From assembly GCA_001897155.1 (NCBI GenBank), contig MKSF01000023.1, positions 1-64,000 on the forward strand: 64,000 nucleotides of DNA, read 5' to 3'. Both the position numbers and the translations under genes were made by a program. A model generated the notes under the pieces. The model ran no database searches and was not told where the DNA came from. It saw only the letters and a program-made list of their open reading frames with translations. Origin of the DNA: Bacteroidetes bacterium 47-18 (GTDB taxonomy: Bacteria; Bacteroidota; Bacteroidia; Chitinophagales; Chitinophagaceae). The first letter of the stretch is position 1; each line of letters opens with the position of its first letter. This document shows positions 16,933-39,461 of this stretch, in pieces.

Positions 16933-17511
16933 TTAATTAATTTGCCTCCGGATCCGGCTCAGCGCCTGTGGCGTTATCCCGATATAGGAAGCTAAATATT
17001 TAAGCGGGACGCGCTGTATAAAAAGAGGTTTGTTTTCTAAAAGGAACAGATACATTTCCTTCGGGGATGCTTTTAAGAGCCGGACCTCGCGAAGCGTTTT
17101 CTCCCGGAGCTGCTCTTCCAGGAATACTTTCTGGGTGGTGCTGCAAAGCCTGGATTCCAAAAAGAGCCTGCGTACTTCGCTCATCTCAACATACCACAAA
17201 ACGCCGTTGCTGACAGGTTCATAGACAAATTGCCTGTCTGCTTCATTATCGGCTTTTGCCGTGAAAATATCTCCTTCAAAATAAAAGTCAACTGAGATGG
17301 TGGGCATTGCATCATCTTCGTTACCGGCAATGTATTTCCGTATCGTACCTTTCTGCAGGAAACAAAGGATATCTCTGGGCAATACGGTTTTCCTGGTGAA
17401 GTTCACAAGACTAAGCCTGTCCCATATCTCACCATAGTCATCTATCGGGTATTTCGAGAAAATATGTTTATCTATCGTGTTCAAAAAGCGCTTTTTGCTG
17501 ACTGGCTTCAC
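16933..17511 (-). CDS. Crp/Fnr-family transcriptional regulator (first of two)
   Basis: A 192-residue regulator: a cyclic-nucleotide-binding-like beta roll (VLPRDILCFLQKGTIRKYI, ISVDFYFEGDIFTA) and a C-terminal winged helix ending YLASYIGITPQALSRIRRQ. It has no FNR-type cysteine cluster and not all cNMP-contact residues, like most Bacteroidota paralogues of this type. It sits just upstream of the DinB gene and is separated from the sulfur island by about 620 bp that include a MITE-like element. Whether it acts on the island is unknown; the second regulator at 21789 is the better candidate. Confidence 0.82.
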   Translation of the reverse strand: MKPVSKKRFLNTIDKHIFSKYPIDDYGEIWDRLSLVNFTRKTVLPRDILCFLQKGTIRKYIAGNEDDAMPTISVDFYFEGDIFTAKADNEADRQFVYEPVSNGVLWYVEMSEVRRLFLESRLCSTTQKVFLEEQLREKTLREVRLLKASPKEMYLFLLENKPLFIQRVPLKYLASYIGITPQALSRIRRQIN

Positions 17512-18060: not shown

Positions 18061-18105
18061 CGTAACATTTGTTACAGTCCGGGCAGTCTCCGAAAAATAT
18101 CTTTA
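18061..18105 (+). promoter_or_regulatory. Crp/Fnr-type operator and -7 element, SQR promoter
   Basis: A palindrome CGTAACATTTGTTACA (18061-18076, perfect arms GTAAC-N4-GTTAC) is followed by a -7-like TATCTTTA at 18098-18105. The distance from operator start to -7 start is 37 nt, exactly as at five other promoters of the island. The start codon is at 18132. Confidence 0.75.
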
Positions 18106-18131: not shown

Positions 18132-19343
18132 ATGCAAACTCATCATCAAATAGTAATTATCGGCGCCGGTACAGCAGGCATCATGGTAGCGGCACAGCTT
18201 ATGAGAAAAAACAGCAATCTGGATATTGCCATCATTGACCCTTCTGAAAAGCATTACTATCAACCCGCCTGGACCTTGGTAGGCGCGGGAACGTATGATC
18301 TTCAAAAAACCATTCGTTCCACAGAAAGCCTTATTCCCGCTGGGGTCAAATGGATAAAAGACCCGGTAACGGGCTTACAGCCTGATGACAATACGGTCTC
18401 CACACAGCATTCCGGGACAATATCCTATGATTATCTTGTCGTTGCTCCCGGGCTGGTGAATGACCTCTCGCTGATAGAAGGTTTGCAGGAAGCTGTCGAC
18501 CAAGGTGTGGTATGCAGCAATTATATAGACCCTGAATATACCTGGAAATGCCTGCAGGAATTTAAGGGAGGCACCGCTTTGTTTACCCAGCCGGCCACCC
18601 CTATCAAGTGCGGCGGCGCTCCGCAGAAGATCATGTACCTCGCTGCCGATTATCTGCGCAAACAGGGATTGGATAGCAGATCAAAAATAATCTTTGCCAC
18701 GCCCGGAGCGGTTATTTTCGGGGTGAAACCAATTGCAGCGACGCTGACGCAGGTTTTAAACAGGTACCATATAGATTTCAAACCTGCACATACGCCTGTT
18801 AAGATCGATGCGGCTAACAGGATCGCATATTTCAGGAACAATATACAGGGAGTAGAAGGCACCGAAGCCATCCGCTTCGATCTTTTACACCTGGCGCCTC
18901 CTCAAACCGCTCCGAAGTTCGTGAAAGAGTCCATCCTGGTAAATGAGGCGGGATGGTTAGATGTGGACATCAACAGCTTACAGCACAAAAGATACGGCAA
19001 TATTTTTGGTATCGGGGATGTGGCCGCCTTACCTACTGCCAAAACAGGCGCCGCCATCCGCAAGCAGGCTCCCGTGGTTGTAGACAATTTACTGAAGCTG
19101 ATAAAAGGACTGGCCGCTGACAATAAAAGCTATGAAGGATATTCGTCCTGTCCCCTGGTTACCGGGTATGGTAAAATGGTACTGGCAGAATTTAATTACA
19201 AAAACGAATTCACACCGGACCCTAAAATGAAAATGATGCTGATTGCAGACAGCTCTAAAGAGCATTGGCGGTTATGGATCTTAAAAAAATATATTCTTCC
19301 TTATTTGTATTGGAACAAAATGATGAAAGGCGAGGATGTTTAA
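18132..19343 (+). CDS. sqr: Sulfide:quinone oxidoreductase-like flavoprotein
   Basis: A 403-residue FAD protein. The Rossmann motif GAGTAG is at residues 11-16, the second FAD contact GIGDVAALP at 293-301. Two cysteines in the positions expected for the active-site polysulfide pair are visible: C160 (TPIKCGGAP) and C340 (YSSCPLV); C128 is a possible third. The C-terminus has the amphipathic helix that attaches SQR to the membrane (WILKKYILPYLYW). SQR oxidises H2S to persulfide and passes electrons to quinone. It opens the sulfur island and has its own operator-promoter. The next gene has a second promoter 90 bp downstream. Confidence 0.88.
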   Translation: MQTHHQIVIIGAGTAGIMVAAQLMRKNSNLDIAIIDPSEKHYYQPAWTLVGAGTYDLQKTIRSTESLIPAGVKWIKDPVTGLQPDDNTVSTQHSGTISYDYLVVAPGLVNDLSLIEGLQEAVDQGVVCSNYIDPEYTWKCLQEFKGGTALFTQPATPIKCGGAPQKIMYLAADYLRKQGLDSRSKIIFATPGAVIFGVKPIAATLTQVLNRYHIDFKPAHTPVKIDAANRIAYFRNNIQGVEGTEAIRFDLLHLAPPQTAPKFVKESILVNEAGWLDVDINSLQHKRYGNIFGIGDVAALPTAKTGAAIRKQAPVVVDNLLKLIKGLAADNKSYEGYSSCPLVTGYGKMVLAEFNYKNEFTPDPKMKMMLIADSSKEHWRLWILKKYILPYLYWNKMMKGEDV

Positions 19344-19351
19344 TGCTGCAA

Positions 19352-19396
19352 TGTAACTCTTGTAACAATTAAAGCGAAACGGATTGCAGAAGTTTG
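19352..19396 (+). promoter_or_regulatory. Crp/Fnr-type operator and -7-like element before the transporter-porin operon
   Basis: TGTAACTCTTGTAACA at 19352-19367 matches the operator with one arm altered (GTAAC instead of GTTAC). A TTTG element (GAAGTTTG) starts at 19389, 37 nt from the operator start. The start codon is at 19435. Confidence 0.6.
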
Positions 19397-19434: not shown

Positions 19435-19992
19435 ATGGAATGGATCTTAGACCCCTGGCCGTGGTATGTATCGGGCCCGCTGATCGCGCTCACTATGTTT
19501 ATCCTGCTGTATGTAGGCAAAAACTTCGGAATGTCTTCCAACCTCAGGACCTTATGTACTATCTGCGGAGCAGACAAGACCTGCGATTTTTTCTGCTTTG
19601 ACTGGAAAGCCCAGCGGTGGAATCTTCTGGTAATGGCGGGAGCCATCATCGGCGGATTTATAGCGGCAAATTATTTATCGGCAGATCAGGTACCGGACCT
19701 GAACCCTCACACCGTAAGCCAGCTACAAAGCTTAGGCTTTGAAAGTGCCGGCAAAAGCTATGTACCCACAGAATTATTTGGCAGTGAAGCCTTTTCCGAT
19801 CCTGCCACCATTGGCTTGTTATTAGCCGGGGGGCTGCTGGTAGGCTTCGGCGCCCGCTATGCAGGCGGATGTACTTCCGGCCACGCTATCTCAGGCCTGA
19901 GCAATTTACAGTTACCTTCCCTTATAGCCACCATAGGCTTTTTTACCGGGGGACTTATCATGGTACATTTAATTTTCCCTTTGATCTTCTAA
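19435..19992 (+). CDS. YeeE/YedE-family transporter, first half
   Basis: A 185-residue membrane protein with about four or five transmembrane segments. The diagnostic motif ARYAGGCTSGHAISGLSNL (near residues 141-159) is the cysteine-containing signature of YeeE/YedE proteins, which pass thiosulfate or related sulfur species by handing them along cysteines. Extra cysteines occur near the N-terminus (LCTICGADKTCDFFCF), an unusual cluster for this family. Full-length family members contain two repeats; here the second repeat is a separate gene at 21356, so the two probably form one transporter. They are separated by a porin gene. Confidence 0.85.
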   Translation: MEWILDPWPWYVSGPLIALTMFILLYVGKNFGMSSNLRTLCTICGADKTCDFFCFDWKAQRWNLLVMAGAIIGGFIAANYLSADQVPDLNPHTVSQLQSLGFESAGKSYVPTELFGSEAFSDPATIGLLLAGGLLVGFGARYAGGCTSGHAISGLSNLQLPSLIATIGFFTGGLIMVHLIFPLIF

Positions 19993-19999
19993 CGCGATT

Positions 20000-21328
20000 A
20001 TGAAACGTTTGATAAGTGTATGGCTATTGCTTTCGGTAGCCTTATCTGCAGCAGCGCAGCACAAAACACTATTCGAGTATATAAGAGAAGGCGAGGTCAG
20101 CGGTCATATCAGGAACTACTTTATGGCCACGGACAATCATAAGGGGCAGGACTATTATGCAGATGCCATCGGCGGGCTGCTGAGCTATGAGTCCAAGACC
20201 TATAAAGGTTTCCGGTTAGGCGTTTCCGGCATTTTCAGCTACCGTATGTTTTCCAATGACCTGAATAAAAAAGATGCGCTTACCGGGAAAAGCAATAAAT
20301 GGGAACGGGAGTTGTTTGACGTCAATCACCAGGAGAATTATAACGACCTGGACAGGCTGGAAGAATTGTTCATAAAGTATCACTGGAAGCAGTCCTACAT
20401 TACCTATGGCAAAATACCGGTGCCCTACACGCCCCTTATCAATAAAAGCGACGGCAGGATGAAGCCTTTTGCATTTCAGGGAGGATGGGCCCAGCACAAG
20501 CGGGACAGCACCACAATAGAAGGAGGCTGGCTACACAAGGTCTCTCCCCGTGCAATGACGGAATGGTTTGCTTCCAATGAACTGTTCGGGTTGACCGACA
20601 ATGGCTTACAGCCCGATGGCAATAAAGCATCGTACCTGCATCATACACCCTCTTCAGGCATTGGAATTGTTCACGCAGGGCAGGCTTACAGGCACTGGAA
20701 AGCTGATGTCTGGAATGTTTACACCGACAAGCTCATCAATACGGCGTGGGCGCAACTGGAATATCACAATAAGCATTGGCGATCCGGGGTAATTTACGCT
20801 TACCAGACACCACACAGCTACCAGGAAAAGCTGGAATACAACAACCGGTATGTACAGCCCGGCGAGAACGGACAAGCACTGAGCGCTATGGTCCAATATG
20901 AAACAAATGGCTGGAAGCTCAAAACAGCCTATACACACGCTTTTGCATCAGGCCGCTTTCTGACACCCAGAGAGCTGGGACGGGACCAGTTTTACACCTC
21001 TATGCCCAGGAGCAGGCTGGATGGTCTGGGTAATGCAGACCTGTATGCAGTAGGCATTAATTACCATACCGGACATTTCGGGGTTGATGTTGACGGATTG
21101 ACTTCAAACGGCATAATGGCGGGTAATGCCCGGTATAACAAATACAACCTGGATGACTTTTACCAGGTCAACATCAGAATGCATTACGGGTTTGACAGAT
21201 TTATGGAAGGATTAAATATTGACCTCCTATGCGTCTGGAAAGTTAATAAGAATGATCATGGTACGGACCTGGCCTACCAGAAGAGCGATTTTAATCAGGT
21301 GAATTTAATAGTAAACTATAATTTTTAA
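20000..21328 (+). CDS. OprD-like outer-membrane porin
   Basis: A 442-residue protein with signal peptide (LLLSVALSAAAQ). The mature chain begins with the OprD-like HIRNYFMATDNHKGQDYYAD and then alternates strand-turn segments with GGLLSYESKTYKGFRLGVSG and YITYGKIPVPYTPLINKSD. It ends FNQVNLIVNYNF, whose terminal Phe is the outer-membrane barrel signal. OprD-type porins are specific channels for small solutes. Its position between two half-transporters for sulfur species suggests it lets the same substrate (thiosulfate or similar) cross the outer membrane. That substrate is inference from context. Confidence 0.82.
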   Translation: MKRLISVWLLLSVALSAAAQHKTLFEYIREGEVSGHIRNYFMATDNHKGQDYYADAIGGLLSYESKTYKGFRLGVSGIFSYRMFSNDLNKKDALTGKSNKWERELFDVNHQENYNDLDRLEELFIKYHWKQSYITYGKIPVPYTPLINKSDGRMKPFAFQGGWAQHKRDSTTIEGGWLHKVSPRAMTEWFASNELFGLTDNGLQPDGNKASYLHHTPSSGIGIVHAGQAYRHWKADVWNVYTDKLINTAWAQLEYHNKHWRSGVIYAYQTPHSYQEKLEYNNRYVQPGENGQALSAMVQYETNGWKLKTAYTHAFASGRFLTPRELGRDQFYTSMPRSRLDGLGNADLYAVGINYHTGHFGVDVDGLTSNGIMAGNARYNKYNLDDFYQVNIRMHYGFDRFMEGLNIDLLCVWKVNKNDHGTDLAYQKSDFNQVNLIVNYNF

Positions 21329-21355: not shown

Positions 21356-21772
21356 ATGAAGAAAAACATCATTTATCTGGCAATAGGTATATTTTTCGGT
21401 ATCGTCATGTATAAGTCAGAAGCGGCATCGTGGTTCAGGATATATGAAATGTTCAACTTCCAGTCCGTGCATATGTACGGGGTTATAGGCACAGCCCTGC
21501 TAACCGGGATACTGGTTGTTCAGTACATAAAGAGAAAACGGCTGAAAGATATCAATGGAAAAGAGATAAAGATCGCCGATAAGGAAAAAAGCATTGCAAG
21601 GTACCTGATCGGCGGCATCCTGTTCGGGCTGGGCTGGGCATTGGCAGGAGCCTGTCCGGGTCCGATGTTCGTATTGGCCGGGGCCGGCTATTTTCCAATA
21701 CTTATTGTTATCTTAGGAGCGGTTTTAGGCACCTGGTTCTATGGGCTCCTGAAAGACAGATTACCTCACTAA
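21356..21772 (+). CDS. YeeE/YedE-family transporter, second half (DUF6691-like)
   Basis: A 138-residue membrane protein with about four transmembrane segments. The motif GWALAGACPGPMFVLAGAGY holds the conserved family cysteine (GACPGP), the counterpart of GGCTSGH in the first half. An N-terminal segment (IYLAIGIFFGIVMYKSEAASW) and a charged loop (KRKRLKDINGKEIKI) match the DUF6691 layout. It starts 27 bp after the porin gene and 16 bp before the Crp/Fnr gene. Together with 19435-19992 it probably makes one thiosulfate/sulfur transporter. Confidence 0.85.
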   Translation: MKKNIIYLAIGIFFGIVMYKSEAASWFRIYEMFNFQSVHMYGVIGTALLTGILVVQYIKRKRLKDINGKEIKIADKEKSIARYLIGGILFGLGWALAGACPGPMFVLAGAGYFPILIVILGAVLGTWFYGLLKDRLPH

Positions 21773-21788
21773 TCACAAATATAGCATT

Positions 21789-22427
21789 ATGGAAGACCTG
21801 ATACATGAAGCCTACGGTGGCATATTTGAGCCGGCGCTGCTGGATGAAATTTCCACCGTTGCCAAACTGGTACCTTTTAAGGAAGGTGACGTACTGATTG
21901 ATATAGGCAAATACATCAAAACCATGCCCCTGCTCATCAGCGGCGCCATCAAGATCATGCGGGAAGATTTTGATACCGGGGAGCTGCTGCTGTACTTTAT
22001 TGAAAAAGGAGATACCTGCTCTATGACACTGACCTGCTGTATGGGTGACAAGAAAAGCGAAATACGGGCAGTAGCCGAAAACAATGGCCTCGTGGCCATG
22101 ATCCCTGTCGGTAAAATGGAAGAATGGATGGGCAAATACAAAAGCTGGCGGGCTTATGTGTTTGAAAGCTATAACAACCGCTTCAATGAATTGCTGAATG
22201 CGATCGACAATATCGCCTTCATGCATATGGACGAAAGGCTGCTGAATTATCTTTCGGAAACCAGCAAGGTCAACAGCAGCACTATTATCAATAAAACACA
22301 CCAGGAAATAGCCAATGAGCTGAACAGCTCAAGGGTCGTTATATCGCGTTTGCTGAAAGCACTGGAGAACGAAGGCAAGATAAAGCTGAACCGGAATAAT
22401 ATAGAATTGTTACACCTGACAAGATAA
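21789..22427 (+). CDS. Crp/Fnr-family regulator with Cys-rich sensor domain
   Basis: A 212-residue regulator. The N-terminal beta roll (about residues 25-115) contains C77, C83 and C84 in the segment KGDTCSMTLTCCMGDKKSE. This is not an FNR iron-sulfur motif but is suited to thiol or persulfide chemistry. The HTH is at about 170-193 (THQEIANELNSSRVVISRLL). It is cotranscribed with the transporter-porin genes and is the only regulator inside the sulfur island. Six island promoters share a palindrome placed where a Crp/Fnr activator binds, so this protein is the likely regulator. The inducer (sulfide, persulfide, or NO) cannot be told from the sequence. Confidence 0.85.
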   Translation: MEDLIHEAYGGIFEPALLDEISTVAKLVPFKEGDVLIDIGKYIKTMPLLISGAIKIMREDFDTGELLLYFIEKGDTCSMTLTCCMGDKKSEIRAVAENNGLVAMIPVGKMEEWMGKYKSWRAYVFESYNNRFNELLNAIDNIAFMHMDERLLNYLSETSKVNSSTIINKTHQEIANELNSSRVVISRLLKALENEGKIKLNRNNIELLHLTR

Positions 22428-22431
22428 GCAT

Positions 22432-23673
22432 TTGAAAGCAGATATTCAACCCGGGCTAAAGGAGAACTGGCAGCAGTTTACCCTGCTCGTCCTCGTCAAT
22501 ATGATGGTAGGCGGCATGGTGGGCCTGGAAAGAACCGTTGTGCCATTGGTGGGAACGGAAGAATTTAAAATCCGGTCGGACATAGTCGTTTTTTCGTTCA
22601 TCATTGCGTTTGGCGTAGTCAAAGCCTTTACCAACCTGATCTCAGGCGTATTGGCAGACCGGTACACCCGGAAAAAAGTATTGATCTGGGGATGGCTGGC
22701 GGGTTTGCCGGTTCCTTTTTTGCTGGCTTTCGCCCCTTCCTGGAACTGGATACTGTTTGCAAACGTCTTGCTCGGTGTCAGTCAGGGATTGGCCTGGTCA
22801 ATGACCGTCAATATGAAGATTGACCTGGCAGGCAGGAAAAACAGGGGCCTCGCAATGGGACTGAACGAAGCTGCAGGTTACGGGGCAGTAGGATTGACGG
22901 CTTTACTGACAGGCTACCTGGCTTCACATTACGGCTTACGGCCACAACCTTTTTATATCGGCATAGCTTATACCGTTGCAGGTTTATTGCTTTCTGTTTT
23001 TGTGGTTCGGGATACCCGGAAATTTGCACAGATGGAAGCCGTACAAACACCGTCCGCCGAGATCGCTCATAAGCCGGACCTGTGGTGGGTATTCAAAGAA
23101 ACCTCCTTCAAAAACAAAAACCTGTTTTCGATTTCACAGGCAGGATTGATTAACAACCTGAATGACGGGATGTCCTGGGGCGTATTCCCCTTGCTCTTTA
23201 TGTCCATGGGGGTCAGGTTAGAAGGCGTTGGCTGGATCAAAGCCGTTTATCCCGTGGTTTGGGGCGTAGGGCAAATCGTTACGGGACCTTTAGCGGATAA
23301 GGTCGGAAGAAAGCCCCTGATCGTCTGGGGAATGTTCGTGCAGGTTTCAGGTCATATAGTGATCGGTTTTGAATGGTTTGAGCCCTTAACATCGGGGTTG
23401 ACAGGCTCGGTGTTGTTAGGGATCGGAACAGCAATGGTTTACCCGGCGTTATTAGCAGCAGTAAGCGACACGGCTCATCCAGCCTGGCGGGCATCATCGT
23501 TAGGCGTTTACAGGTTCTGGCGGGATATGGGCTACGCTGTCGGAGCATTAATGGCCGGAATAGCCGGGAGCTTCCTCGGTCTGGAATGGGCAGTACATAT
23601 TGCAGGCATTATCACGCTTATCTCGGGCATCATCGTATGGATAAAAATGAAAGAAACAACAACGCATTCTTAA
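22432..23673 (+). CDS. Major facilitator superfamily transporter
   Basis: A 413-residue protein with about twelve hydrophobic segments and MFS loop motifs: GVLADRYTRKKVLIWG after helix 2 (the G-x-L-a-D-r-x-G/T-r-k-x motif) and GPLADKVGRKPLIVWG in the second half. The substrate is not evident. The reading frame starts at a TTG at 22432, four bases after the stop of the regulator gene. No ATG occurs before the first helix, so TTG is the probable start. The last gene of the transporter-regulator operon; its partners suggest an inorganic sulfur or nitrogen anion, which is inference. Confidence 0.82.
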   Translation: MKADIQPGLKENWQQFTLLVLVNMMVGGMVGLERTVVPLVGTEEFKIRSDIVVFSFIIAFGVVKAFTNLISGVLADRYTRKKVLIWGWLAGLPVPFLLAFAPSWNWILFANVLLGVSQGLAWSMTVNMKIDLAGRKNRGLAMGLNEAAGYGAVGLTALLTGYLASHYGLRPQPFYIGIAYTVAGLLLSVFVVRDTRKFAQMEAVQTPSAEIAHKPDLWWVFKETSFKNKNLFSISQAGLINNLNDGMSWGVFPLLFMSMGVRLEGVGWIKAVYPVVWGVGQIVTGPLADKVGRKPLIVWGMFVQVSGHIVIGFEWFEPLTSGLTGSVLLGIGTAMVYPALLAAVSDTAHPAWRASSLGVYRFWRDMGYAVGALMAGIAGSFLGLEWAVHIAGIITLISGIIVWIKMKETTTHS

Positions 23674-23912: not shown

Positions 23913-24215
23913 ATGAAGAATATCCTTTCAGCCGTAACACTATTGTTATGCCTGACCTTTAGCGTCAACGCGCAGGAAAAACATACTACGGTTAACGAAC
24001 AGGAAAAGCCCACCTGCCAGATGCACAAAAAAGGGCGCTCTAAAGGGAATAAAAAAGATAACTCCAAAGATGGGAAAGACGGTCATGCACAGCAAACAAA
24101 GAATTGTAAGCCAGGTAATAAAACCGGCTCCCAGGAACATAAAATGTGTTGTGATGAGCCCCAAGAAGCAGCGAAAAGATGTTGCTCTCCAAACAAACCT
24201 GGCAGCCAATCCTGA
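23913..24215 (+). CDS. Small secreted Lys/Cys-rich protein
   Basis: A 100-residue protein with a clear signal peptide (ILSAVTLLLCLTFSVNAQ). The mature part is lysine- and glycine-rich with six cysteines, including a CC pair in KMCCDEPQEAAKRCCSPN and single Cys near TCQMHK and KNCKPG. No family is recognised. The Cys pairs and His suggest metal or persulfide binding in the periplasm, which would suit the sulfur island. Codon use gives no sign that it is spurious: the signal peptide and even Cys spacing support a real gene. Its promoter region abuts MITE copy 2. Confidence 0.65.
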   Translation: MKNILSAVTLLLCLTFSVNAQEKHTTVNEQEKPTCQMHKKGRSKGNKKDNSKDGKDGHAQQTKNCKPGNKTGSQEHKMCCDEPQEAAKRCCSPNKPGSQS

Positions 24216-24277
24216 TTTCTGAATTTATCCGCCGGCTGCAGGGCCCACGGATCTTAATTCATCTAAATCTATTCAGA

Positions 24278-25000
24278 ATGATCAATTACAAATCTATTGC
24301 AATAGGCTTATTCAGCACATTGCTTTTCAATACCGGCTCAACCGCTCAGACCAGCACCGGTGAGGTAAAAGTGAGCGGAGCCATGAAGAATGTCATGCGT
24401 AAGGGAGAACTTTCCGGTACAATACATTTAGACACGATCCAGAACAAAAAGCACTTATACGGTTTAGGACCCGTGGAATATTTAAAAGGGGAAATCCTGA
24501 TCCTGGATGGAAGATCCTATGTCTCCGCAGTAAAGCGGGACGGAAGCATCCAGGTAGCGGAAACATACGATGTAAAAGCTCCGTTTCTTGTGTACAGCAA
24601 CACTGAAAACTGGAAAGCATATAAATTACCGGAACGAATCAAAACGGCCAAGCAACTGGAGGCCTACATTGACGAAATACGCAAAAACCACCAGCGCCCT
24701 TTTGCGTTTAAACTGGAAGGCACTTTTGCACAGGTAAATTTTCATATTCAAAACCTGCCTGACGGCGCTGTAGTCAAAGAGCCTAACGATGCACATAAAG
24801 GACAGGGAAAATATGAACGAACAAATGTTAGCGGGACAATCGTCGGATTTTTCTCAACCGAACATCAGAGCATCTTTACACATCACGACAGCTATATCCA
24901 TATGCATTTCATCAACTCAGACCGAACCGAGATGGGACACATTGACGATCTCATTCTTGACGGTAAGTCAAAAGTAAAAATTTATATGCCGGGAAAATAA
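24278..25000 (+). CDS. Exported acetolactate-decarboxylase-like protein
   Basis: Start at 24278 was chosen because it opens a signal peptide (AIGLFSTLLFNTGSTAQ); the frame is open upstream but overlaps the previous gene. The mature 215 residues match alpha-acetolactate decarboxylase: LYGLGPVEYLKGEILILDG, PFAFKLEGTFAQVNFHIQ, GTIVGFFS and the metal site IHMHFINSDRTEMGHIDDL, where three His (HxH and GH) would bind zinc. AlsD normally converts acetolactate to acetoin in the cytoplasm. An exported form is less usual. Its link to the sulfur island is unclear and may be chance. No valine/acetolactate synthase gene is near. Confidence 0.78.
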   Translation: MINYKSIAIGLFSTLLFNTGSTAQTSTGEVKVSGAMKNVMRKGELSGTIHLDTIQNKKHLYGLGPVEYLKGEILILDGRSYVSAVKRDGSIQVAETYDVKAPFLVYSNTENWKAYKLPERIKTAKQLEAYIDEIRKNHQRPFAFKLEGTFAQVNFHIQNLPDGAVVKEPNDAHKGQGKYERTNVSGTIVGFFSTEHQSIFTHHDSYIHMHFINSDRTEMGHIDDLILDGKSKVKIYMPGK

Positions 25001-27139: not shown

Positions 27140-27184
27140 TGTAACTATTGTTACCATTTCCCGTAAATACCGGTGCTACTTTTG
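27140..27184 (+). promoter_or_regulatory. Crp/Fnr-type operator and -7 element before TauE-YeiH operon
   Basis: TGTAACTATTGTTACC at 27140-27155 has perfect arms GTAAC-N4-GTTAC. A consensus TACTTTTG -7 element starts at 27177, 37 nt from the operator start. A phrase AAATACCGG just upstream of the -7 recurs as AAATACAGG in the next promoter at 29040. Confidence 0.8.
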
Positions 27185-27227: not shown

Positions 27228-28037
27228 ATGGAAATAACAATTATCATTGGTTATATATTAGCGATACTCGTAGGCACATCACTGGGCCTGATAGGTAGCG
27301 GCGGCTCTATCCTCACCGTTCCTATCTTAGTGTATGTAATGGGTGTGGACCCTGTCATTGCAACGGCATATTCATTGTTTATTGTTGGCGCTACCTCTTT
27401 GGTGGGCGGCATTCAAAATGCAATGCAGAAAAAAGTAGATTTCAAAACCGTACTGATATTCGGTATTCCTTCCATTGCGGCGGTGTATCTCACAAGAGCT
27501 TACCTGATGCCGCTGATCCCTGATACACTTTTCAGCATAGGCAGCTTTGAGTTTACCAAGCCCATAGCCTTAATGGTGCTTTTCGCCATCGTAATGATAG
27601 CCGCCTCTATCTCTATGATCAAACCCGGCAGGAAAAACAAAGAAGCATCCGGGGACGGCGAAATGAGATACAATTATCCAATGATCCTTCTGGAGGGTTC
27701 CCTGGTAGGAGTAGTAACAGGATTAGTCGGCGCAGGAGGTGGTTTCCTGATCATCCCGGCATTGGTATTGCTGGCGAAAATGCCGATGAAATTAGCAGTG
27801 GGAACCTCCCTGTTTATCATCGCAGCCAAATCGCTTTTGGGCTTTACAGGAGACCTGCAAGGAAGCGAGCATATAGACTGGGTATTGCTTTCCGTATTCA
27901 CATTGCTTTCCATTGCAGGTATATTTATCGGTATTTTATTATCCAGGAAAATAGAAGGCAATAAGCTCAAGACCGCTTTTGGCTGGTTTGTACTGGTAAT
28001 GGGCATTTATATTTTTATCAAAGAATTATTCCTGTAA
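27228..28037 (+). CDS. TauE/SafE-family sulfite/organosulfur exporter
   Basis: A 269-residue membrane protein with about eight transmembrane segments in two repeats. Each repeat begins with the glycine-rich family motif: [20 protein letters not shown] near residues 16-35 and [20 protein letters not shown] near 167-186. TauE/SafE proteins export sulfite, sulfoacetate or related anions. It lies directly before the YeiH gene, with only the stop codon between, so the two are coupled. It is controlled by the shared operator. In the island it would remove sulfite made by persulfide oxidation (inference). Confidence 0.88.
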
Positions 28038-28997
28038 ATGATTGCTAAAACACATTCCGCGGGTGCCCGGGCCTTTGCTTTATTGCCCGGGCTGGCAGCT
28101 TTCGGTCTTGCCATGGCGCTGCCCGCATTGAACGCGCTGCTATCAGGCCTGATAGCAGGCGTACTTATCGGAAATGTGTTTCGGTTACCCGCTTCCTTCC
28201 GGTCGGCATCCGGGGCTACAGGAACCAGATTGCTGGAATACTCCGTTATCTTCCTTGCTTTTGGGGTGCAATATGAGCACCTCATGGGTCTGGGCTGGAA
28301 AAGCTTACTCATGGTAACGGTAATAGTGCTTGCTGTTATTCTGGCAAGCTACCGCCTGAGCAAGCGCCCGGTCAACTGGCTGATCGGTTTCGGGACAGCT
28401 ATCTGCGGCTCTTCGGCTATAGCAGCAGTAGCCCCATCGGTAGCGAAGGACAAAAGTGACGCCGGCATTGCCATTGCGGTGGTTAATCTTTACGGAACGC
28501 TGGGTATGCTGGCATTGCCATTGGCATTCAAATACGTGGACGCCACGCCGGCCGTCCAAGCTATGTTTATAGGAGGTTCGCTGCACGCAGTAGGCAATGT
28601 AGCCGGAGCGGGCTATATGATGAGCAACGAAGTCGGCGAGCTGGCCGTAATGATCAAGCTCGCACGGGTCTCAATGCTGTCATTCGGGGTGATCCTGCTC
28701 AACTTATTAAGCAATAGTCATGGCAGCAAAAGCTGGTGGTCCTATTTAAAGCTACCCTGGTATATAACAGGATTTATACTTATCAGCGTTGTTGTCTCCT
28801 TTACGGATATCCCGGCAGGATGGCTGAAAAACATTGACTTCGCAGGCAAGCTGATATTGACTATCGCTATGACCAATATAGGGATACAGATCCGGTTCAG
28901 GGACCTGTGGCAGTCAGGTAAGAGCGGACTGCTGTTTGGATTGTCCGTATTTGCATTCCAACTGATGATTATCGGCCTGTTTGTTTTGTGGATGTGA
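28038..28997 (+). CDS. YeiH/UPF0324-family putative sulfate exporter
   Basis: A 319-residue membrane protein with about ten hydrophobic segments. Motifs of the YeiH family are visible: SGLIAGVLIGNVFRLP, ATGTRLLEYSVIFLAFGV, and LIGFGTAICGSSAIAAVAPS near residues 115-134, where the GTAICGSSA run is the family hallmark. The C-terminal part shows GLLFGLSVFAFQLMIIGLFV. Its ATG follows the stop of the TauE-like gene without a gap. Members are listed as putative sulfate exporters, but transport has not been shown for most. With TauE it would clear oxidised sulfur. Confidence 0.85.
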   Translation: MIAKTHSAGARAFALLPGLAAFGLAMALPALNALLSGLIAGVLIGNVFRLPASFRSASGATGTRLLEYSVIFLAFGVQYEHLMGLGWKSLLMVTVIVLAVILASYRLSKRPVNWLIGFGTAICGSSAIAAVAPSVAKDKSDAGIAIAVVNLYGTLGMLALPLAFKYVDATPAVQAMFIGGSLHAVGNVAGAGYMMSNEVGELAVMIKLARVSMLSFGVILLNLLSNSHGSKSWWSYLKLPWYITGFILISVVVSFTDIPAGWLKNIDFAGKLILTIAMTNIGIQIRFRDLWQSGKSGLLFGLSVFAFQLMIIGLFVLWM

Positions 28998-29039: not shown

Positions 29040-29084
29040 TGTAATGGTTGTTACCAACCGGGGGAAATACAGGCAATACTTTTG
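29040..29084 (+). promoter_or_regulatory. Crp/Fnr-type operator and -7 element before the MBL-rhodanese gene
   Basis: TGTAATGGTTGTTACC at 29040-29055, then TACTTTTG at 29077-29084, again 37 nt from operator start to -7 start. The start codon is at 29124. Confidence 0.75.
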
Positions 29085-29123: not shown

Positions 29124-30542
29124 ATGAGAGTAGAACAAATTTATACCGGATGTCTGGCACAAGGTGCCTATTATATCGAAAGCAATGGTGAGGCTGTAGT
29201 AATAGACCCACTGAGGGAGGTGCAGCCCTACATCAGCAAAGCGGAAAAAGACGGGGCGAAAATCAAGTATGTCCTGGAAACACACTTTCACGCAGACTTT
29301 GTAAGCGGGCACCTGGACTTAGCACAAAAAACCGGCGCGATCATCGTTTTCGGTCCGACAGCCAAACCCGGGTTCGATGCACACGTAGCAGCAGACGGTG
29401 AAGTATTAAAGGTGGGCGATGTAAGCATCAGGGTCATTCATACACCCGGTCATACTATGGAGAGCGCCTGCTTTCTTCTGACAGATAAGGACGGTAAGGA
29501 CGTAGGATTATTTACGGGAGATACCCTGTTTATCGGGGATGTGGGCCGTCCGGACCTGGCGCAGAAAGTAGTGGCAGATCTGACCCAGGATAAATTAGCC
29601 GCGCATCTTTACGATTCCCTGCATAACAAGATCATACCTTTGGCTGATGACATTATTGTATATCCCGCGCACGGCGCCGGTTCGGCCTGTGGTAAAAATA
29701 TGAGCAAGGAAACTACCGATACTTTGGGACATCAGAAAGCGACCAACTATGCCTTACAGCCTATGACGAAAGAAGAATTCGTAGAGAAGGTATTGGATGG
29801 ATTGATGCCGCCTCCGGGCTATTTCCCCGCAAATGTGCTGATGAATATTAAAGGCTATGAAAGCATAGATAAGGTGCTGGATAAAGGTTTACAGGCTTTA
29901 ACGCCGGAGGCTTTTGAAGCGGCAGCCAACGAAACAGACGCCCTGATCCTGGATACCAGGAACGCGCAAACTTTCGCCCAAGGCTTTATCCCGAATGCAA
30001 TCAACATCGGTATTGATGGCAGCTTTGCTCCCTGGGTCGGCGCCCTGATCCCGGATATCAGGCAAGCTATTTTACTGGTAGCAAATGAAGGTACAGCGGA
30101 AGAAGTGGTAACAAGGCTGGCGCGTGTAGGATATGATAATGCTATCGGTTACCTGAAAGGCGGTATGCAGGCCTGGGCGGCTGCCGGCAAAGAAACAGAT
30201 ACTATTGAGTCCGTTTCTGCAGATGAGCTGGCGGATCGCTTGGCGCAAGACCCGGATTTGAACATCCTGGATGTCAGAAAGAAAAGCGAGCATTTTTCAG
30301 AGCACATCATCGGTTCAGAAAACATAGCACTGGATTATATCAATGAGCATATTGCCGAAGTAAGCAAGGACAAAACATACTACGTGCACTGTGCCGGTGG
30401 CTACCGCTCTATGATCTTCAACTCGATCTTAAGAGCCAGGGGCTACGATAACCTGATTGATGTGCAAGGTGGCTTTAAAGCCATCAAGGAATCCGGTAAA
30501 TTCCAAGTAAGCGATTACGTTTGCCCTACAACAATGCTGTAA
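29124..30542 (+). CDS. MBL-fold persulfide dioxygenase-like protein fused to two rhodanese domains
   Basis: A 472-residue fusion. Residues 1-250 are a metallo-beta-lactamase fold with metal ligands ETHFHADFVSGH (52-63), HTPGHTMES and GDTLFIGDVGRPDL, as in ETHE1-type persulfide dioxygenases. A first rhodanese domain follows (about 265-365); its active-site loop lacks the Cys (LLVANEGTAEE). The second domain (about 375-472) has it: YYVHCAGGYRS. Such enzymes oxidise glutathione or other low-molecular-weight persulfide to sulfite; the active rhodanese can pass a sulfane sulfur to thiol. It has its own operator. A 463-aa paralogue lies at 34662. Confidence 0.88.
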   Translation: MRVEQIYTGCLAQGAYYIESNGEAVVIDPLREVQPYISKAEKDGAKIKYVLETHFHADFVSGHLDLAQKTGAIIVFGPTAKPGFDAHVAADGEVLKVGDVSIRVIHTPGHTMESACFLLTDKDGKDVGLFTGDTLFIGDVGRPDLAQKVVADLTQDKLAAHLYDSLHNKIIPLADDIIVYPAHGAGSACGKNMSKETTDTLGHQKATNYALQPMTKEEFVEKVLDGLMPPPGYFPANVLMNIKGYESIDKVLDKGLQALTPEAFEAAANETDALILDTRNAQTFAQGFIPNAINIGIDGSFAPWVGALIPDIRQAILLVANEGTAEEVVTRLARVGYDNAIGYLKGGMQAWAAAGKETDTIESVSADELADRLAQDPDLNILDVRKKSEHFSEHIIGSENIALDYINEHIAEVSKDKTYYVHCAGGYRSMIFNSILRARGYDNLIDVQGGFKAIKESGKFQVSDYVCPTTML

Positions 30543-30772: not shown

Positions 30773-30817
30773 TGTAACATTAGTAGCAATACACCCCGCT
30801 TCAAAGACGGAACTTTG
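30773..30817 (+). promoter_or_regulatory. Crp/Fnr-type operator and -7-like element before the peroxiredoxin gene
   Basis: TGTAACATTAGTAGCA at 30773-30788 keeps the left arm; the right arm is degenerate (GTAGC). GAACTTTG starts at 30810, 37 nt from the operator start. The site closely resembles the one at 34575 (TGTAACATNAGTNGCA). Confidence 0.65.
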
Positions 30818-30850: not shown

Positions 30851-31498
30851 ATGGAAAATCAAATAAATACTATGCCAAGAATCGGCGATATGGCACCGGA
30901 TTTTGATGCCATAACCACAACGGGGCAGTTGAAATTTTCGGAATATAATAAGGGCAACTGGGTGATCCTGTTTTCTCACCCTGCAGATTTCACACCTGTC
31001 TGTACTACAGAAATGACGGGCTTCGCGCAAGAAAGCGATTTCTTTGAAAAACATCATACGAAGCTAATGGGACTGAGCATAGACAGTATCCACAGCCACA
31101 TAGCCTGGGTAAATGCCGTAGATGAAAAAACCGGTGTATTATTCAACTTCCCGATCATCGCTGACCTGGATATGAAAGTAGCGAAGCTGTATGGGATGCT
31201 GCAGCCGGGAGAAAGTGAAACTGCCGCGGTCCGTGCCGTATTTATCATCGACCCCTCCGGTAAGATCCGCCTGATCATGTATTACCCGCTGAATGTAGGC
31301 AGGAATATGGACGAGATCAAACGCGCCTTATTAGCGCTGCAAACTTCAGATGAGCATAAAGTGGCTATGCCTCTTAACTGGCAGCCCGGAGATAAGGTGA
31401 TCGTAGGAGCCCCTAAAACGCTGGAAGGCTTAAAAGAACGTAAGGCAGATACCAGCCTGGAACAGACAGACTGGTACCTGGCTAAAAAATCAATCTAA
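30851..31498 (+). CDS. 1-Cys peroxiredoxin (Prx6 type)
   Basis: A 215-residue peroxiredoxin. The peroxidatic motif SHPADFTPVCTTEMTGF places the catalytic Cys at residue 51, with the conserved Thr and Pro before it. The protein has a long C-terminal part with PLNVGRNMDEIKRALLALQ, ATP-like Prx6 spacing, and a conserved Arg in the RLIMYYPLN region. No resolving Cys is visible, so it probably uses an external thiol. It removes peroxides and may also act on persulfide. It is under the shared operator, which ties it to the sulfur stress response. Confidence 0.88.
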   Translation: MENQINTMPRIGDMAPDFDAITTTGQLKFSEYNKGNWVILFSHPADFTPVCTTEMTGFAQESDFFEKHHTKLMGLSIDSIHSHIAWVNAVDEKTGVLFNFPIIADLDMKVAKLYGMLQPGESETAAVRAVFIIDPSGKIRLIMYYPLNVGRNMDEIKRALLALQTSDEHKVAMPLNWQPGDKVIVGAPKTLEGLKERKADTSLEQTDWYLAKKSI

Positions 31499-31560: not shown

Positions 31561-31875
31561 ATGCTATCCGTATTCAAAAAATTCTTCGGGACCACCGACG
31601 ATACCCCTGTAAAAAATGCCATCGCCAACGGCGCATTCCTGGTAGATGTGCGTACACCGTCCGAATTTTCTGGAGGCAGCGCCAAAGGCGCGGTCAATAT
31701 TCCTTTAGATAAGATACAGGCGCAATTGGCCAAATTCAAGGGCAGGAAAAATATCGTGGTCTTTTGCCGGAGCGGTAACCGCAGCAGCCAGGCCAAGCGT
31801 ATCCTGGAACAGAACGGTATCCAGAACGTCATCAATGGTGGTACCTGGCAAAATGTTGCGAATCTTGTTATGTAA
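31561..31875 (+). CDS. Single-domain rhodanese-like sulfurtransferase
   Basis: A 104-residue protein that is one rhodanese domain: [16 protein letters not shown] at about residues 23-38 and the active-site loop [14 protein letters not shown] with Cys at about 63 and basic residues around it. The ending [12 protein letters not shown] is the usual final helix. It transfers a sulfane sulfur between thiol carriers. It starts 62 bp after the peroxiredoxin gene and precedes the broken methyltransferase gene, so the three form one transcript. Confidence 0.85.
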
Positions 31876-34279: not shown

Positions 34280-34661
34280 TTACCGGGAAACCCCGTTCAG
34301 AGAAAAGCAGGATGCACCACATTCCCATACAGGATTACAGCAAGAGCGCTGAACCGGGAAACAGCGCATTAAAGCAATGCCTCACATCGCGCTCCGTTCA
34401 CCGGGCTCAAACTATGCGCCCACCCACGGCCAGATAGTCCGTTCGCAGTGAGCTGCAAGCTCATCATTACCGGTTGTTCCGTCACCGGCGGAAAGCAACC
34501 TGTAATTAAAAATTACAATTTATAGATATAACCAATACGGTTATTGTTTATCCTTTTCCAATTCTTATCCCTAATGTAACATAAGTGGCAGTACAGGCCG
34601 CCTACAGGATGGAACTTTGCAATATCAATCAATTCCTAAACAATAAAAAAAATAATAGTTT
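34280..34661. other. Intergenic region with decayed repeat and MBL-rhodanese promoter
   Basis: It contains, on the opposite strand, a fragment like the MITE internal block (34376-34399: CGCTCCGTTC preceded by GCCTCACAT) and a stretch CAGATAGTCC at 34431 that resembles a MITE end. The operator-promoter is at 34575-34619. No gene is supported. Confidence 0.45.
34575..34619 (+). promoter_or_regulatory. Crp/Fnr-type operator and -7-like element before the second MBL-rhodanese gene
   Basis: TGTAACATAAGTGGCA at 34575-34590, then GAACTTTG at 34612-34619; the operator-to--7 distance is again 37 nt. The right arm is degenerate as at 30773. The start codon is at 34662. Confidence 0.65.
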
Positions 34662-36053
34662 ATGTTTTTCCAGCACGTATATGACAAGAGTTTAGCGCAG
34701 GCAAGCTATTTTATCGGTTGCCAGGCAAAGGGCGAAGCCATTGTAATAGACCCGCAGCGGGATATTGATGTGTACCTGAATATTGCCAGACAAAACAATA
34801 TGAAGATTACGCATATCACCGAAACGCACATTCACGCCGATTTTCTTTCCGGTTCCCGTGAGCTGGCCGCTGTTACCGGTGCTGCCTTATATCTTTCCGA
34901 TGAAGGCGGTGAGGACTGGCAATACCAGTTTGCACATACCGGCTTAAAGCACGGAGATAAAATCACGGTGGGCAACCTTATCCTGGAAGTACTGCACACT
35001 CCCGGTCACACGCCCGAAAGCATCAGCTTCCTGCTGACAGATACACCCGCTACTGATAAGCCGGTAATGGTGTTTACCGGGGACTTTGTATTTGTAGGGG
35101 ATATCGGCCGCCCGGACCTGCTGGAAAAAGCGGCCGGTCTTGTGGGTACACAGGAAAAAGGCGCTCAGCAGATGTATGCATCCATTCAGCGTTTTGCACA
35201 ATTACCGGAGTATGTGCAGGTATGGCCGGCACACGGTGCGGGTTCGGCCTGTGGTAAGGCGCTGGGAGCAGTTCCAAGCTCTACGGTAGGATATGAGAAG
35301 ATCAGGAACTGGGCTTTCCAGTACTCAGATGATGAGCCGGGATTTATCAACTACCTGCTCGAAGGGCAACCGGAACCTCCCAAGTATTTTGCTATGATGA
35401 AGCACCTGAATAAAGTGAACCGCCCGCTTCTGGTGGAAGTGCCTAAATATCCCAAACTTACGAAAGAGCAGTTTCTTGCCGCGGCGCAAAACGGGCTGAA
35501 AGTCATTGATGCCAGGAACAAAGCAGATTTCGCGCAGGCATTCATCCCGGGAAGCATCAACATACAGGGCAATAACAGCTTCTCTACCTGGGCAGGCTGG
35601 ATATTGAATTACCAGGAGCAGTTCATAATCGTAGCGGACGACAACCAGATAGAGGATCTGACGCGTAAGCTGATGCGTATCGGGCTGGATAATGTGTATG
35701 GTTACATTCCGGATGTGCATAGCCTGGATATTCCATTGGAGCAGGCGGATGTGATAGGCTTGGATACCTTTAAAGGCTTTGTGGGCAAAGAAGATGTACA
35801 AATCGTGGATGTACGGGGTGTAAGCGAGTATAATGCCGGCCATATCCGGGGAGCGGAAAACATCTTTGTAGGTACGCTTCAGGACAACCTGGATAAGCTG
35901 GACAAAAACAGGCCGATTGTGATCCATTGCCAGGCCGGTGACCGTTCTGCCGTAGCTTACTCCTTATTGCGCAGGAATGGGTTTGACAAGCTGAAAAATT
36001 ACTCCGGGGGCTATAAGGAATGGTCGGAATCCGGTAATGAAACTGTAAGGTAA
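34662..36053 (+). CDS. MBL-fold protein fused to two rhodanese domains (second copy)
   Basis: A 463-residue paralogue of the protein at 29124. The MBL metal site is ETHIHADFLSGSRELA (about 51-66), HTPGHTPES and FTGDFVFVGDIGRPDL, where the third His of the first motif has become Ser, as also occurs in family members. The first rhodanese domain lacks its Cys (FIIVADDNQIED). The second has IVIHCQAGDRSAVAYSLL. It is probably an enzyme of persulfide processing like its paralogue, with a different substrate preference. It has its own operator and ends at a terminator. Confidence 0.86.
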   Translation: MFFQHVYDKSLAQASYFIGCQAKGEAIVIDPQRDIDVYLNIARQNNMKITHITETHIHADFLSGSRELAAVTGAALYLSDEGGEDWQYQFAHTGLKHGDKITVGNLILEVLHTPGHTPESISFLLTDTPATDKPVMVFTGDFVFVGDIGRPDLLEKAAGLVGTQEKGAQQMYASIQRFAQLPEYVQVWPAHGAGSACGKALGAVPSSTVGYEKIRNWAFQYSDDEPGFINYLLEGQPEPPKYFAMMKHLNKVNRPLLVEVPKYPKLTKEQFLAAAQNGLKVIDARNKADFAQAFIPGSINIQGNNSFSTWAGWILNYQEQFIIVADDNQIEDLTRKLMRIGLDNVYGYIPDVHSLDIPLEQADVIGLDTFKGFVGKEDVQIVDVRGVSEYNAGHIRGAENIFVGTLQDNLDKLDKNRPIVIHCQAGDRSAVAYSLLRRNGFDKLKNYSGGYKEWSESGNETVR

Positions 36054-36073
36054 ATTAAAAAAATACAGAACGC

Positions 36074-36117
36074 TTACCGGGGACGGGATAGTGATATGCT
36101 ACGCCCCGGTAAATTTT
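36074..36117 (+). terminator. Terminator after the second MBL-rhodanese gene
   Basis: A stem TTACCGGGG / CCCCGGTAA (36074-36082 with 36104-36112) and a loop of 21 nt are followed by ATTTT. It may only reduce read-through into the downstream rhodanese gene. Confidence 0.6.
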
Positions 36118-36133
36118 CCAAACAACATAAAAA

Positions 36134-36442
36134 ATGAAGAACATATCCCAGGCCGAATGGCAGGAACTGACAGCTAACAATCCTGACGCCATCATCATTG
36201 ATGTGCGCACAGAGGGGGAATTTGTAAGCGGCAAACTTGAAAATGCCATTAACATAGACATCTTTGAAACCGGGTCCTTTATTCATAAGATAGAGGCCAT
36301 GGATAAATCGAAGGAGTACTTCCTCTATTGCAGAAGCGGACAGCGCAGCGCTAACGCCTGCCGCCTTTTGGAATCATCAGGCATCAGCAAGGTTTACAAT
36401 CTTTCCGGGGGGATCATGTCCTGGACCGGGACGGTAGTGTAA
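36134..36442 (+). CDS. Rhodanese-like sulfurtransferase
   Basis: A 102-residue single rhodanese domain. It opens MKNISQAEWQELTANNPD, then AIIIDVRTEGEFVSGKLENA, and has the active loop YFLYCRSGQRSANACRLL. It ends KVYNLSGGIMSWTG, the standard terminal helix. The second of three stand-alone rhodaneses in the island. It is followed within 50 bp by thioredoxin and then by a lipoprotein rhodanese, so the three are probably cotranscribed and may pass persulfide sulfur on to thioredoxin. Confidence 0.87.
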   Translation: MKNISQAEWQELTANNPDAIIIDVRTEGEFVSGKLENAINIDIFETGSFIHKIEAMDKSKEYFLYCRSGQRSANACRLLESSGISKVYNLSGGIMSWTGTVV

Positions 36443-36490
36443 GCGAAGTGCTTCAGTTGTCAATCATAATCATCAAATACAAATAAACAT

Positions 36491-36784
36491 ATGACATTTC
36501 AGGAAATCATCAACCAGGACAAGCCTGTGCTGGTTGACTTCTTTGCAGAATGGTGCGGTCCCTGCAAAATGCAGGCCCCCATCCTGCAGGATGTAAAACA
36601 AAAGGTAGGCGACATTGCCGATATTATTAAAGTGGATGTGGACAAATATCCCCAGGTGGCAGCGCAATACCAGGTGCAGGGTGTGCCTACGCTTATCCTT
36701 TTCAAAAACAGCAAAGCCATATGGCGTCAGTCGGGCGTAGCGCCTGCCGGGCTTTTGGAAAAATTAATCAATGAAAACAGGTAA
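36491..36784 (+). CDS. trxA: Thioredoxin
   Basis: A 97-residue thioredoxin with the catalytic motif EWCGPCK (residues 21-27), preceded by VLVDFFAEW, and the conserved cis-Pro region VQGVPTLILF near 67-76. No signal peptide, so it is cytoplasmic. In the neighbourhood of rhodaneses it would reduce persulfide on their Cys and release H2S, as thioredoxin is known to do. It is distinct from a general housekeeping thioredoxin only by its place here. Confidence 0.9.
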   Translation: MTFQEIINQDKPVLVDFFAEWCGPCKMQAPILQDVKQKVGDIADIIKVDVDKYPQVAAQYQVQGVPTLILFKNSKAIWRQSGVAPAGLLEKLINENR

Positions 36785-36790
36785 AACAAG

Positions 36791-37153
36791 ATGAAAAAAC
36801 TATTGATAATCTTATTGCTGCCTTTGCTGGCGCTAAGCTGCACCGCGCAGCATCCCGGCATCCACCCGATTTCGGCAGCAGAGCTGCAGACAGCGCTAAA
36901 TGAGAAGATACAGTTAGTCGATGTGAGAACAGCCGCTGAATTTAACGGCGGTCACCTGTATAATGCTTTGAATATTGATGTGAACAGCGCGGATTTTGAT
37001 GCGAAAATTCAGCAACTGGACAAAACCAAACCTGTGTATATCTATTGCCAGAGTGGCAAACGCAGCAGCAATGCGGCGAAAAAAATGGAATCTTTAGGGT
37101 TCAGGACAATATATGACCTTAAAGGCGGGATCCTTTCCTGGAATAATAAATAA
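36791..37153 (+). CDS. Lipoprotein rhodanese
   Basis: A 120-residue protein with a lipoprotein signal peptide (KKLLIILLLPLLALSCTAQ; lipobox ALS-C). The rhodanese domain follows: IQLVDVRTAAEFNGGHLYNA and the active loop VYIYCQSGKRSSNAAKKM. It is therefore in the periplasm or at the outer membrane, while its neighbours are cytoplasmic. It may receive sulfane sulfur from the outside of the inner membrane. It starts 6 bp after the thioredoxin gene. Confidence 0.87.
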   Translation: MKKLLIILLLPLLALSCTAQHPGIHPISAAELQTALNEKIQLVDVRTAAEFNGGHLYNALNIDVNSADFDAKIQQLDKTKPVYIYCQSGKRSSNAAKKMESLGFRTIYDLKGGILSWNNK

Positions 37154-39457: not shown

Positions 39458-39461
39458 GAAC

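Follow-up and report, generated by a model that had tools for sequence, protein, structure and literature searches.

Among the Crp/Fnr proteins, FNR, Flp and CprK are thiol or iron-sulfur sensors, and FNR carries an N-terminal cysteine cluster plus a distal cysteine; to our knowledge, none of the three is known for sulfide. Sulfur operons are controlled, among others, by CstR. In Acinetobacter, as far as the available part of PMC7315123 goes, BigR controls yeeE-yedE-pdo2 and FisR activates a sulfide oxidation operon. The same text describes a persulfidated Crp-like protein; since its near relatives are Vfr and, at 50% identity, E. coli Crp, it is not of the family of the regulator considered here (PMC7315123, available part). 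The accessible passages on sensing in a 2025 review name SqrR, BigR and FisR, with the control of sqr included (PMC12170894), those of a 2022 review name SqrR and BigR, with CstR among the references (PMC9774590), and in the accessible part of PMC8014003 Crp/Fnr proteins are linked with denitrification only. The open-access literature searched, a body of text in which subscription journals are mostly uncovered, yielded no persulfide sensor of the Crp/Fnr type. Sulfur detoxification genes are common in Bacteroidota, yet the sulfide sensors named in these passages come from other families.

Here we consider a Crp/Fnr regulator from Bacteroidetes bacterium 47-18. "The window" is the whole stretch of DNA analysed, 64,000 nucleotides of contig MKSF01000023.1; its relevant features are collected in Table 1.

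Table 1. Features of the window around the regulator gene (a composite is an operator followed by its promoter box; positions of the box alone are in brackets)
Feature	Position	Strand	Basis or target
SQR-like flavoprotein	18132..19343	+	Pfam/NCBIfam
YeeE/YedE sulfur permease half	19435..19992	+	Pfam
Porin-like protein	20000..21328	+	weak Opr-family match; Pfam: none
Second YeeE half, DUF6691	21356..21772	+	Pfam
Codons 77-84 of the regulator (C77 ... C83 C84)	22017..22040	+	ORF translation
MFS transporter, closing the apparent operon of the regulator	22432..23673	+	Pfam
TauE/SafE exporter	27228..28037	+	Pfam
YeiH-family putative sulfate exporter	28038..28997	+	family matches
Persulfide dioxygenase-like metallo-beta-lactamase with rhodanese domains	29124..30542	+	Pfam
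Peroxiredoxin with 1-Cys-type C-terminal domain	30851..31498	+	family matches
Single-domain rhodanese	31561..31875	+	Pfam
Second dioxygenase-rhodanese (34662), then rhodanese, thioredoxin, rhodanese	34662..37153	+	
Operator GTAACATTTGTTAC with -7-like box TATCTTTA (18098-18105)	18062..18105	+	before SQR 18132
Operator GTAACTCTTGTAAC with box GAAGTTTG (19389-19396)	19353..19396	+	before YeeE 19435, regulator's own operon
Operator GTAACTATTGTTAC with box TACTTTTG (27177-27184)	27141..27184	+	before TauE-YeiH 27228
Operator GTAATGGTTGTTAC with box TACTTTTG (29077-29084)	29041..29084	+	before persulfide dioxygenase 29124
Weaker operator GTAACATTAGTAGC with box GAACTTTG (30810-30817)	30774..30817	+	before peroxiredoxin 30851
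Weaker operator GTAACATAAGTGGC with box GAACTTTG (34612-34619)	34576..34619	+	before second dioxygenase 34662

The regulator, its island and its cysteines

The gene (21789..22427, + strand) encodes 212 residues of the Crp/Fnr type. The sensor domain matches Pfam cNMP_binding marginally (27.7 bits against a cut-off of 27.5) and the helix-turn-helix matches HTH_Crp_2 clearly (39.3 against 27). An AlphaFold2 model built from a 54-sequence alignment (mean pLDDT 92.8) is matched by Crp-family structures at Z about 16-17; the full-length rmsd is large in many rows of this comparison because, we presume, the two domains are placed differently. By Pfam and structure matches, the protein combines the cNMP-binding-like beta roll and the Crp-type helix-turn-helix that define the Crp/Fnr superfamily. 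Its scores are below the NCBIfam cut-offs for CRP (48 bits against 266) and for the NtcA equivalog (27.7 against 244.95), and its Pfam matches are of the Crp type only, with none to the folds of SqrR/BigR (ArsR), CstR (CsoR) or FisR (sigma-54 activator). The statement of the first-pass annotation that known sulfide sensors belong to other families is correct for those named in the accessible sources (SqrR, BigR, FisR).

The gene does lie within a sulfide island, as annotated: SQR, YeeE, TauE, YeiH, dioxygenases, rhodaneses and a peroxiredoxin surround it. That it is the only regulator there is true of 18.1-37.2 kb among the Pfam-scanned ORFs (some of them matchless), but not of the flank, where a second Crp-like protein (16933-17511, - strand) is encoded divergently from SQR and 0.6 kb upstream of it. 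This second protein has no Pfam match at 0.01 and shares 25% identity with a protein of its genome that Pfam does recognise as Crp-type. The porin-like gene stands between both YeeE halves and seems to share their operon with the regulator; a Pontibacter plasmid island likewise includes a porin. An alpha-acetolactate decarboxylase-like gene (24179-25000) lies inside the island and has no composite operator upstream. A pair of a TPR histidine kinase and a LytTR response regulator (37559-40208) follows the island, with no composite site upstream.

The sole cysteines of the protein are C77, C83 and C84, all inside eight residues. Their location between the beta roll strands, proposed earlier from the letters, agrees with both the translation and the model: the strands are 64-71 and 92-96, the helix 78-85 contains C83 and C84, and C77 immediately precedes it. 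The FNR iron-sulfur pattern is indeed missing, with three cysteines only and no N-terminal ones in the whole 212-aa frame; FNR-type iron-sulfur sensing is ruled out by this count.

Homologues were detected by six-frame search in 117 of 296 Bacteroidota genomes, that of the window included. The alignment has 101 rows, namely the window and 100 of the 136 non-window places (about 9 kb fetched on either side); one row (L087) yields no usable protein, which leaves 100 readable rows (99 homologues and the window). C77, Y69, G52, H171, R182 and R187 are invariant in all 100; C83 is present in 56 rows, C84 in 40. In a cross-phylum set that includes the window, C77 is present in 17/17 sequences, and C83 is also kept in the nine Alphaproteobacteria of the set and in the Thiothrix protein; homologues on Pseudomonadota plasmids have both C77 and C83 (10/10). 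Judged by these sequences (100/100 and 17/17), C77 would qualify as the conserved sensor-domain cysteine characteristic of persulfide-responsive regulators.

When the regulator is aligned with E. coli CRP, its helix 78-85 corresponds to the phosphate-binding segment. We take the cyclic-nucleotide-binding residues to be E72 and R82 in CRP numbering and to match positions 79 and 89 of the regulator. Position 79 is Glu in 0/100 readable rows; position 89 is K in the window protein and Arg in only 5/100. The alignment thus presents a Crp cyclic-nucleotide pocket that is without its phosphate- and ribose-binding residues, and cAMP sensing is ruled out by their loss.

In the tree, clade A (53 rows including the window) mostly has C77-C83-C84, with one subclade lacking C84, clade B (29 rows) has C77 alone, and one of the outer groups carries C77 and C83. 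Most simply, C77 would be the core, C77 with C83 an old state and C84 an addition of clade A; with the tree unrooted, gains and losses are tentative. Three cysteines are found in 80/80 named Bacteroidota loci, which are the top 80 among 585 candidates, close relatives only, and were picked by the helix pattern, not by the cysteine pattern.

Beside SQR genes (E < 1e-40, window included), where conservation of the cysteines was expected from the original proposal, C77 and C83 are kept in 9/9 loci and C84 in 8/9; at L092, a weaker SQR-like match (3e-29) lies 7.6 kb away from the regulator, which of the three cysteines has only C77. Within clade A, sulfur neighbours accompany regulators with all three cysteines in 30/36 loci, with C77 and C83 in 9/12, with a single cysteine in 1/2 and with C77 and C84 in 0/2; the single-cysteine regulators of clade B have them in 14/29. 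A link of C83 or C84 with sulfur neighbours is weakly supported by these counts and confounded by kinship. The three cysteines did not survive as a general feature: the one universal cysteine is C77, and single-cysteine relatives occur in islands of this kind too (L104, L106, L108, L110, L113, L116). A requirement for three cysteines is ruled out by the clades with one or two. We believe that the first-pass annotation was right in direction and is partly supported, the emphasis shifting from three cysteines to C77.

Operator, promoter box and recognition helix

The candidate operator is a gapped palindrome of 14 bases, GTAAC-N4-GTTAC, with a promoter box, TANNTTTG, 22 bases downstream; the box is presumably the Bacteroidota -7 element. 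If the first T of the box is placed at about -12, the centre of the operator comes to about -41, which is the class-II activator position. In silico, GTAAC-N4-GTTAC with TANNTTTG has the Crp-register dyad and the activator placement of a Crp/Fnr site.

In each of the six window composites, the operator centre lies 63-80 bases upstream of the point where translation of a sulfur gene starts. The window contains 7 matches against 0.48 expected (maximum 3 in 100 shuffles); the seventh is the 27141 palindrome read in reverse. In the 3.87-Mb genome the three best composites (0-1 mismatch) are all in the island, the one at 27141 being the best match, and 4/6 composites with at most two mismatches are there as well (binomial about 9e-9, the bounds of the island being set post hoc). 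With at most three mismatches there are 36 composites genome-wide against 47 for the reversed control, and the operator alone with at most one mismatch, at 96 places against 279 for the reversed control, is not diagnostic. Exact operator copies number three in the genome, two in the island and the third on contig 37 at 21657. The sites at 30774 and 34576 are weak on their own and were accepted because of their spacing and target. A two-mismatch composite outside the island (contig 33, 48609) was kept out of the regulon. Another one in the same genome (G000; L245 on contig 26, 30091-30134, - strand), lying between another Crp-like gene and a DoxX-like gene (named by eye), was also kept out. Positive autoregulation is predicted because the 19353 site precedes the operon holding the regulator.

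In relatives, the operator was searched for in 202 regions upstream of clade-A sulfur or regulator genes, from 95 of 111 loci; it is the one gapped palindrome to stand out there. Exact copies precede such genes in 55/95 clade-A loci, with 0 in three shuffles. With at most one mismatch the operator is present in 108/202 regions; by target, these are SQR 7/7, TauE 24/31, YeeE 18/23, dioxygenase 39/66, rhodanese 7/13 and the regulator gene itself 13/62. The whole loci contain 159 distinct exact operators, many from close kin, so that the copies are not independent. The box is at a gap of exactly 22 in 80/159 of them and of 21-23 in 83/159, against 0.4% of random positions; if one mismatch in the box is allowed, 150/159 have it, against about 6%.

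Residue 183, next after the invariant R182 of the recognition helix, is V in the window regulator. Loci with V183 have GTAAC in 95/127 cases and GTGAC in 6. Loci with E183 have GTGA-N6-TCAC in 33/66 (18 sites with a box) and GTAAC in 3; the looser GTAA-N6-TTAC is found in 21/66, with a box at just 3 sites. In clade B, V-helix loci have GTAAC composites in 8/20 and GTGAC in 0, E-helix loci have GTGAC in 4/9 and GTAAC in 1 (a hybrid site, counted in both), and two control palindromes give 0. With the helix columns left out of the tree, there are at least seven changes of residue 183; helix and operator agree in 48/54 scorable loci, and independent pairs on well-supported branches number 3 (p 0.25, too few to reach significance). 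The operator is tied to this regulator family because the site tends to GTGA-N6-TCAC when V183 is E. The Pseudomonadota plasmid regulators have E183 in 10/10, and in 9/10 of their loci GTGA[CT]-N3-[AG]T[CT]AC stands between the regulator and the next gene, as the sole copy within the locus of 10-12 kb for 8/9 and with a spacer one base shorter than in Bacteroidota. An FNR-like operator, TTGA-N6-TCAA, was rejected as background-like: it occurs in 66/127 V-helix loci and has a rightly spaced box at 1/107 sites.

Some loci deserve separate mention. The genome G269 has two sulfur islands (L032 and L104), each with its own regulator, one of them three-cysteine and the other single-cysteine; the L104 regulator has a V helix, L032 has GTAAC sites, and cross-talk between the islands is possible. 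At L056 and L065, a GTGA-N6-TCAC composite lies just upstream of the regulator gene and faces the opposite strand; at L056 the next gene on its strand is cytochrome-bd oxidase subunit-like (by eye). E-helix composites precede OsmC-like or DUF2892-like genes (by eye) at L050, L112, L078, L118 and L127. The E-helix composites suggest a wider regulon in the outer groups.

Gene context was scored by similarity to the window proteins, so distant forms and other kinds of genes are missed in the following counts. SQR, dioxygenase, YeeE, TauE or rhodanese genes are nearby in 40/52 clade-A loci other than the window, and in 2/11 and 1/7 loci of the outer groups, where C77 is still kept. SQR, YeeE, dioxygenase or TauE is found in 63 of the 80 named loci, some of which are truncated at contig ends. 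YeeE is present in 123/296 genomes; in the regulator-bearing ones, 33/98 YeeE genes are within 12 kb of a homologue against about 0.7 expected with an even spread.

Plasmid records matching the regulator number 31, and 14 were examined. The sulfur context is as in the window in 8/10 Pseudomonadota loci: in Paracoccus (2), Ruegeria (2), Thioclava (2), Pseudosulfitobacter and Chelativorans, the regulator is followed by varying subsets of DUF2892, YeeE, DUF6691, metallo-beta-lactamase, sulfurtransferase and SulP (YeeE is absent from the gene tables of both Thioclava records and one Paracoccus record). The Spirosoma and Pontibacter plasmids have the Bacteroidota form of the context. In the Azospirillum and Thiothrix loci DUF2892 adjoins the regulator, but there is no sulfur operon; the Persicobacter and Pusillibacter records have no sulfur operon at the regulator.

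On these genomic grounds, the operators at six sulfur promoters together with the context indicate control of SQR/PDO/YeeE genes. The repeated operator with its fixed spacing, the helix-operator covariation and the cross-phylum context make it very probable that the regulator controls the sulfide island.

The proposed signal and its alternatives

We propose that the regulator is an autoregulated local class-II activator of sulfide and persulfide detoxification with a persulfide signal at C77; from sequence evidence, we consider this reading rather probable. A dimer would bind GTAAC-N4-GTTAC about 41 bases before the inferred start of six promoters between 18.1 and 34.6 kb, with C77 at the head of the helix that lines the former pocket and C83 and C84 further along. 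When sulfane sulfur accumulates, persulfidation or a polysulfide link would form at C77, with C83/C84 as partners, and the modification would shift the dimer to its DNA-binding form.

We infer activation rather than repression, the persulfide signal and the chemistry at C77; sensing through C77 (with C83/C84) seems likely. A persulfide or polysulfide would be the economical signal, since the targets are of kinds that produce, use up or export persulfide, sulfite or thiosulfate. Clade B has C77 alone yet sulfur neighbours in 14/29 loci, so that no dithiol switch can be general, and this single-cysteine clade favours a C77-centred step. In the model, C83 follows C77 at a distance of six residues along the helix, and a simple disulfide would presumably need local unfolding; a sulfur-chain bridge, a C77-only adduct or a cross-dimer link might form without it. 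C83 or C84 may take part. C77 could also serve another signal or the structure, as it is kept where sulfur neighbours are few (2/11; 1/7).

The same activator and regulon could be combined with a different chemistry, C77 being a general thiol switch for redox or electrophile stress (peroxide, disulfide stress, hypochlorite). Flp and CprK are thiol-switched Crp/Fnr proteins, a single-cysteine clade exists, a peroxiredoxin is within the predicted regulon of the window, and thioredoxin-, OsmC- and peroxiredoxin-like neighbours (names partly by eye) occur in other clades. However, SQR, YeeE, TauE or dioxygenase genes lie downstream of 5/6 window sites, and we think a general switch unlikely; the relatives argue weakly here, as their targets are labelled by similarity to window proteins only and 20/31 E-type sites are unlabelled.

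A metal ion, an iron-sulfur cluster or haem could be bound by C77 (together with C83 or an unseen ligand), sulfide acting through a change in this cofactor; in our opinion, this is quite improbable. Cofactors are common among Crp/Fnr proteins, and the invariant cysteine is accompanied by the invariant Y69 and H171; but H171 belongs to the DNA-binding domain, and the three cysteines available lie within eight residues, of which clade B has one. Non-covalent binding of sulfite, thiosulfate, tetrathionate or a low-molecular-weight persulfide in the pocket, with C77 mainly structural, would suit the position of the cysteines in the cyclic-nucleotide pocket, the putative sulfur-anion exporters among the targets and the glutathione response of PrfA and Vfr (PMC7315123, available part). 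We would nonetheless give it only a slight chance, considering that a potentially reactive residue is invariant and that position 89 has no conserved anion-binding Arg. Finally, ownership of the operator by another of the Crp-like proteins of the genome, or a repressor role for the regulator there, is hardly credible given that operator base 3 tracks helix residue 183 of this family and that the fixed class-II spacing points to activation.

A broader scheme may be considered, in which a Crp fold became a reactive-sulfur sensor with C77 in the phosphate segment, an activator counterpart of SqrR/BigR in Bacteroidota and Pseudomonadota with residue-set GTAAC or GTGAC sites; to our mind, the chances of this scheme are even. 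C77 and C83 would have replaced the segment that binds the cyclic-nucleotide phosphate, C84 being added in Bacteroidota. Such a family would serve SQR-dioxygenase-YeeE islands, and a single recognition-helix residue would set GTAAC versus GTGAC. The regulator, the 14-base operator, the predicted regulon of six promoters and the invariant cysteine make sulfide sensing directly testable; if the proposal is true, reactive sulfur joins the signals read by the Crp fold.

Comparison with known systems

FisR (a sigma-54 type activator) and CstR (CsoR family) have folds unrelated to the regulator and are without a Crp-type operator. The consensus of NtcA, a sensor of 2-oxoglutarate, is GTA-N8-TAC; it is contained in GTAAC-N4-GTTAC, although by NCBIfam the regulator is not of the NtcA family. 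The closest solved sequence is 3DV8, a Crp/Fnr regulator (E 6e-15, over residues 47-209), which has cysteines aligned with C77 and C83. FNR, Flp and CprK share with our proposal cysteine-based sensing in a Crp/Fnr protein, but their cysteines sit elsewhere. With CRP and Vfr the fold is common, and the CRP site register, GTGA-N6-TCAC, matches that of the E-helix relatives; the equivalents of the cAMP-binding E72 and R82 are, however, lost in the regulator. BigR and SqrR, of the ArsR family, are like the regulator in being cysteine-based and tied to sulfur detoxification operons. They differ in fold and are repressors that release on persulfide, whereas the regulator has a Crp fold and class-II activator-type sites.
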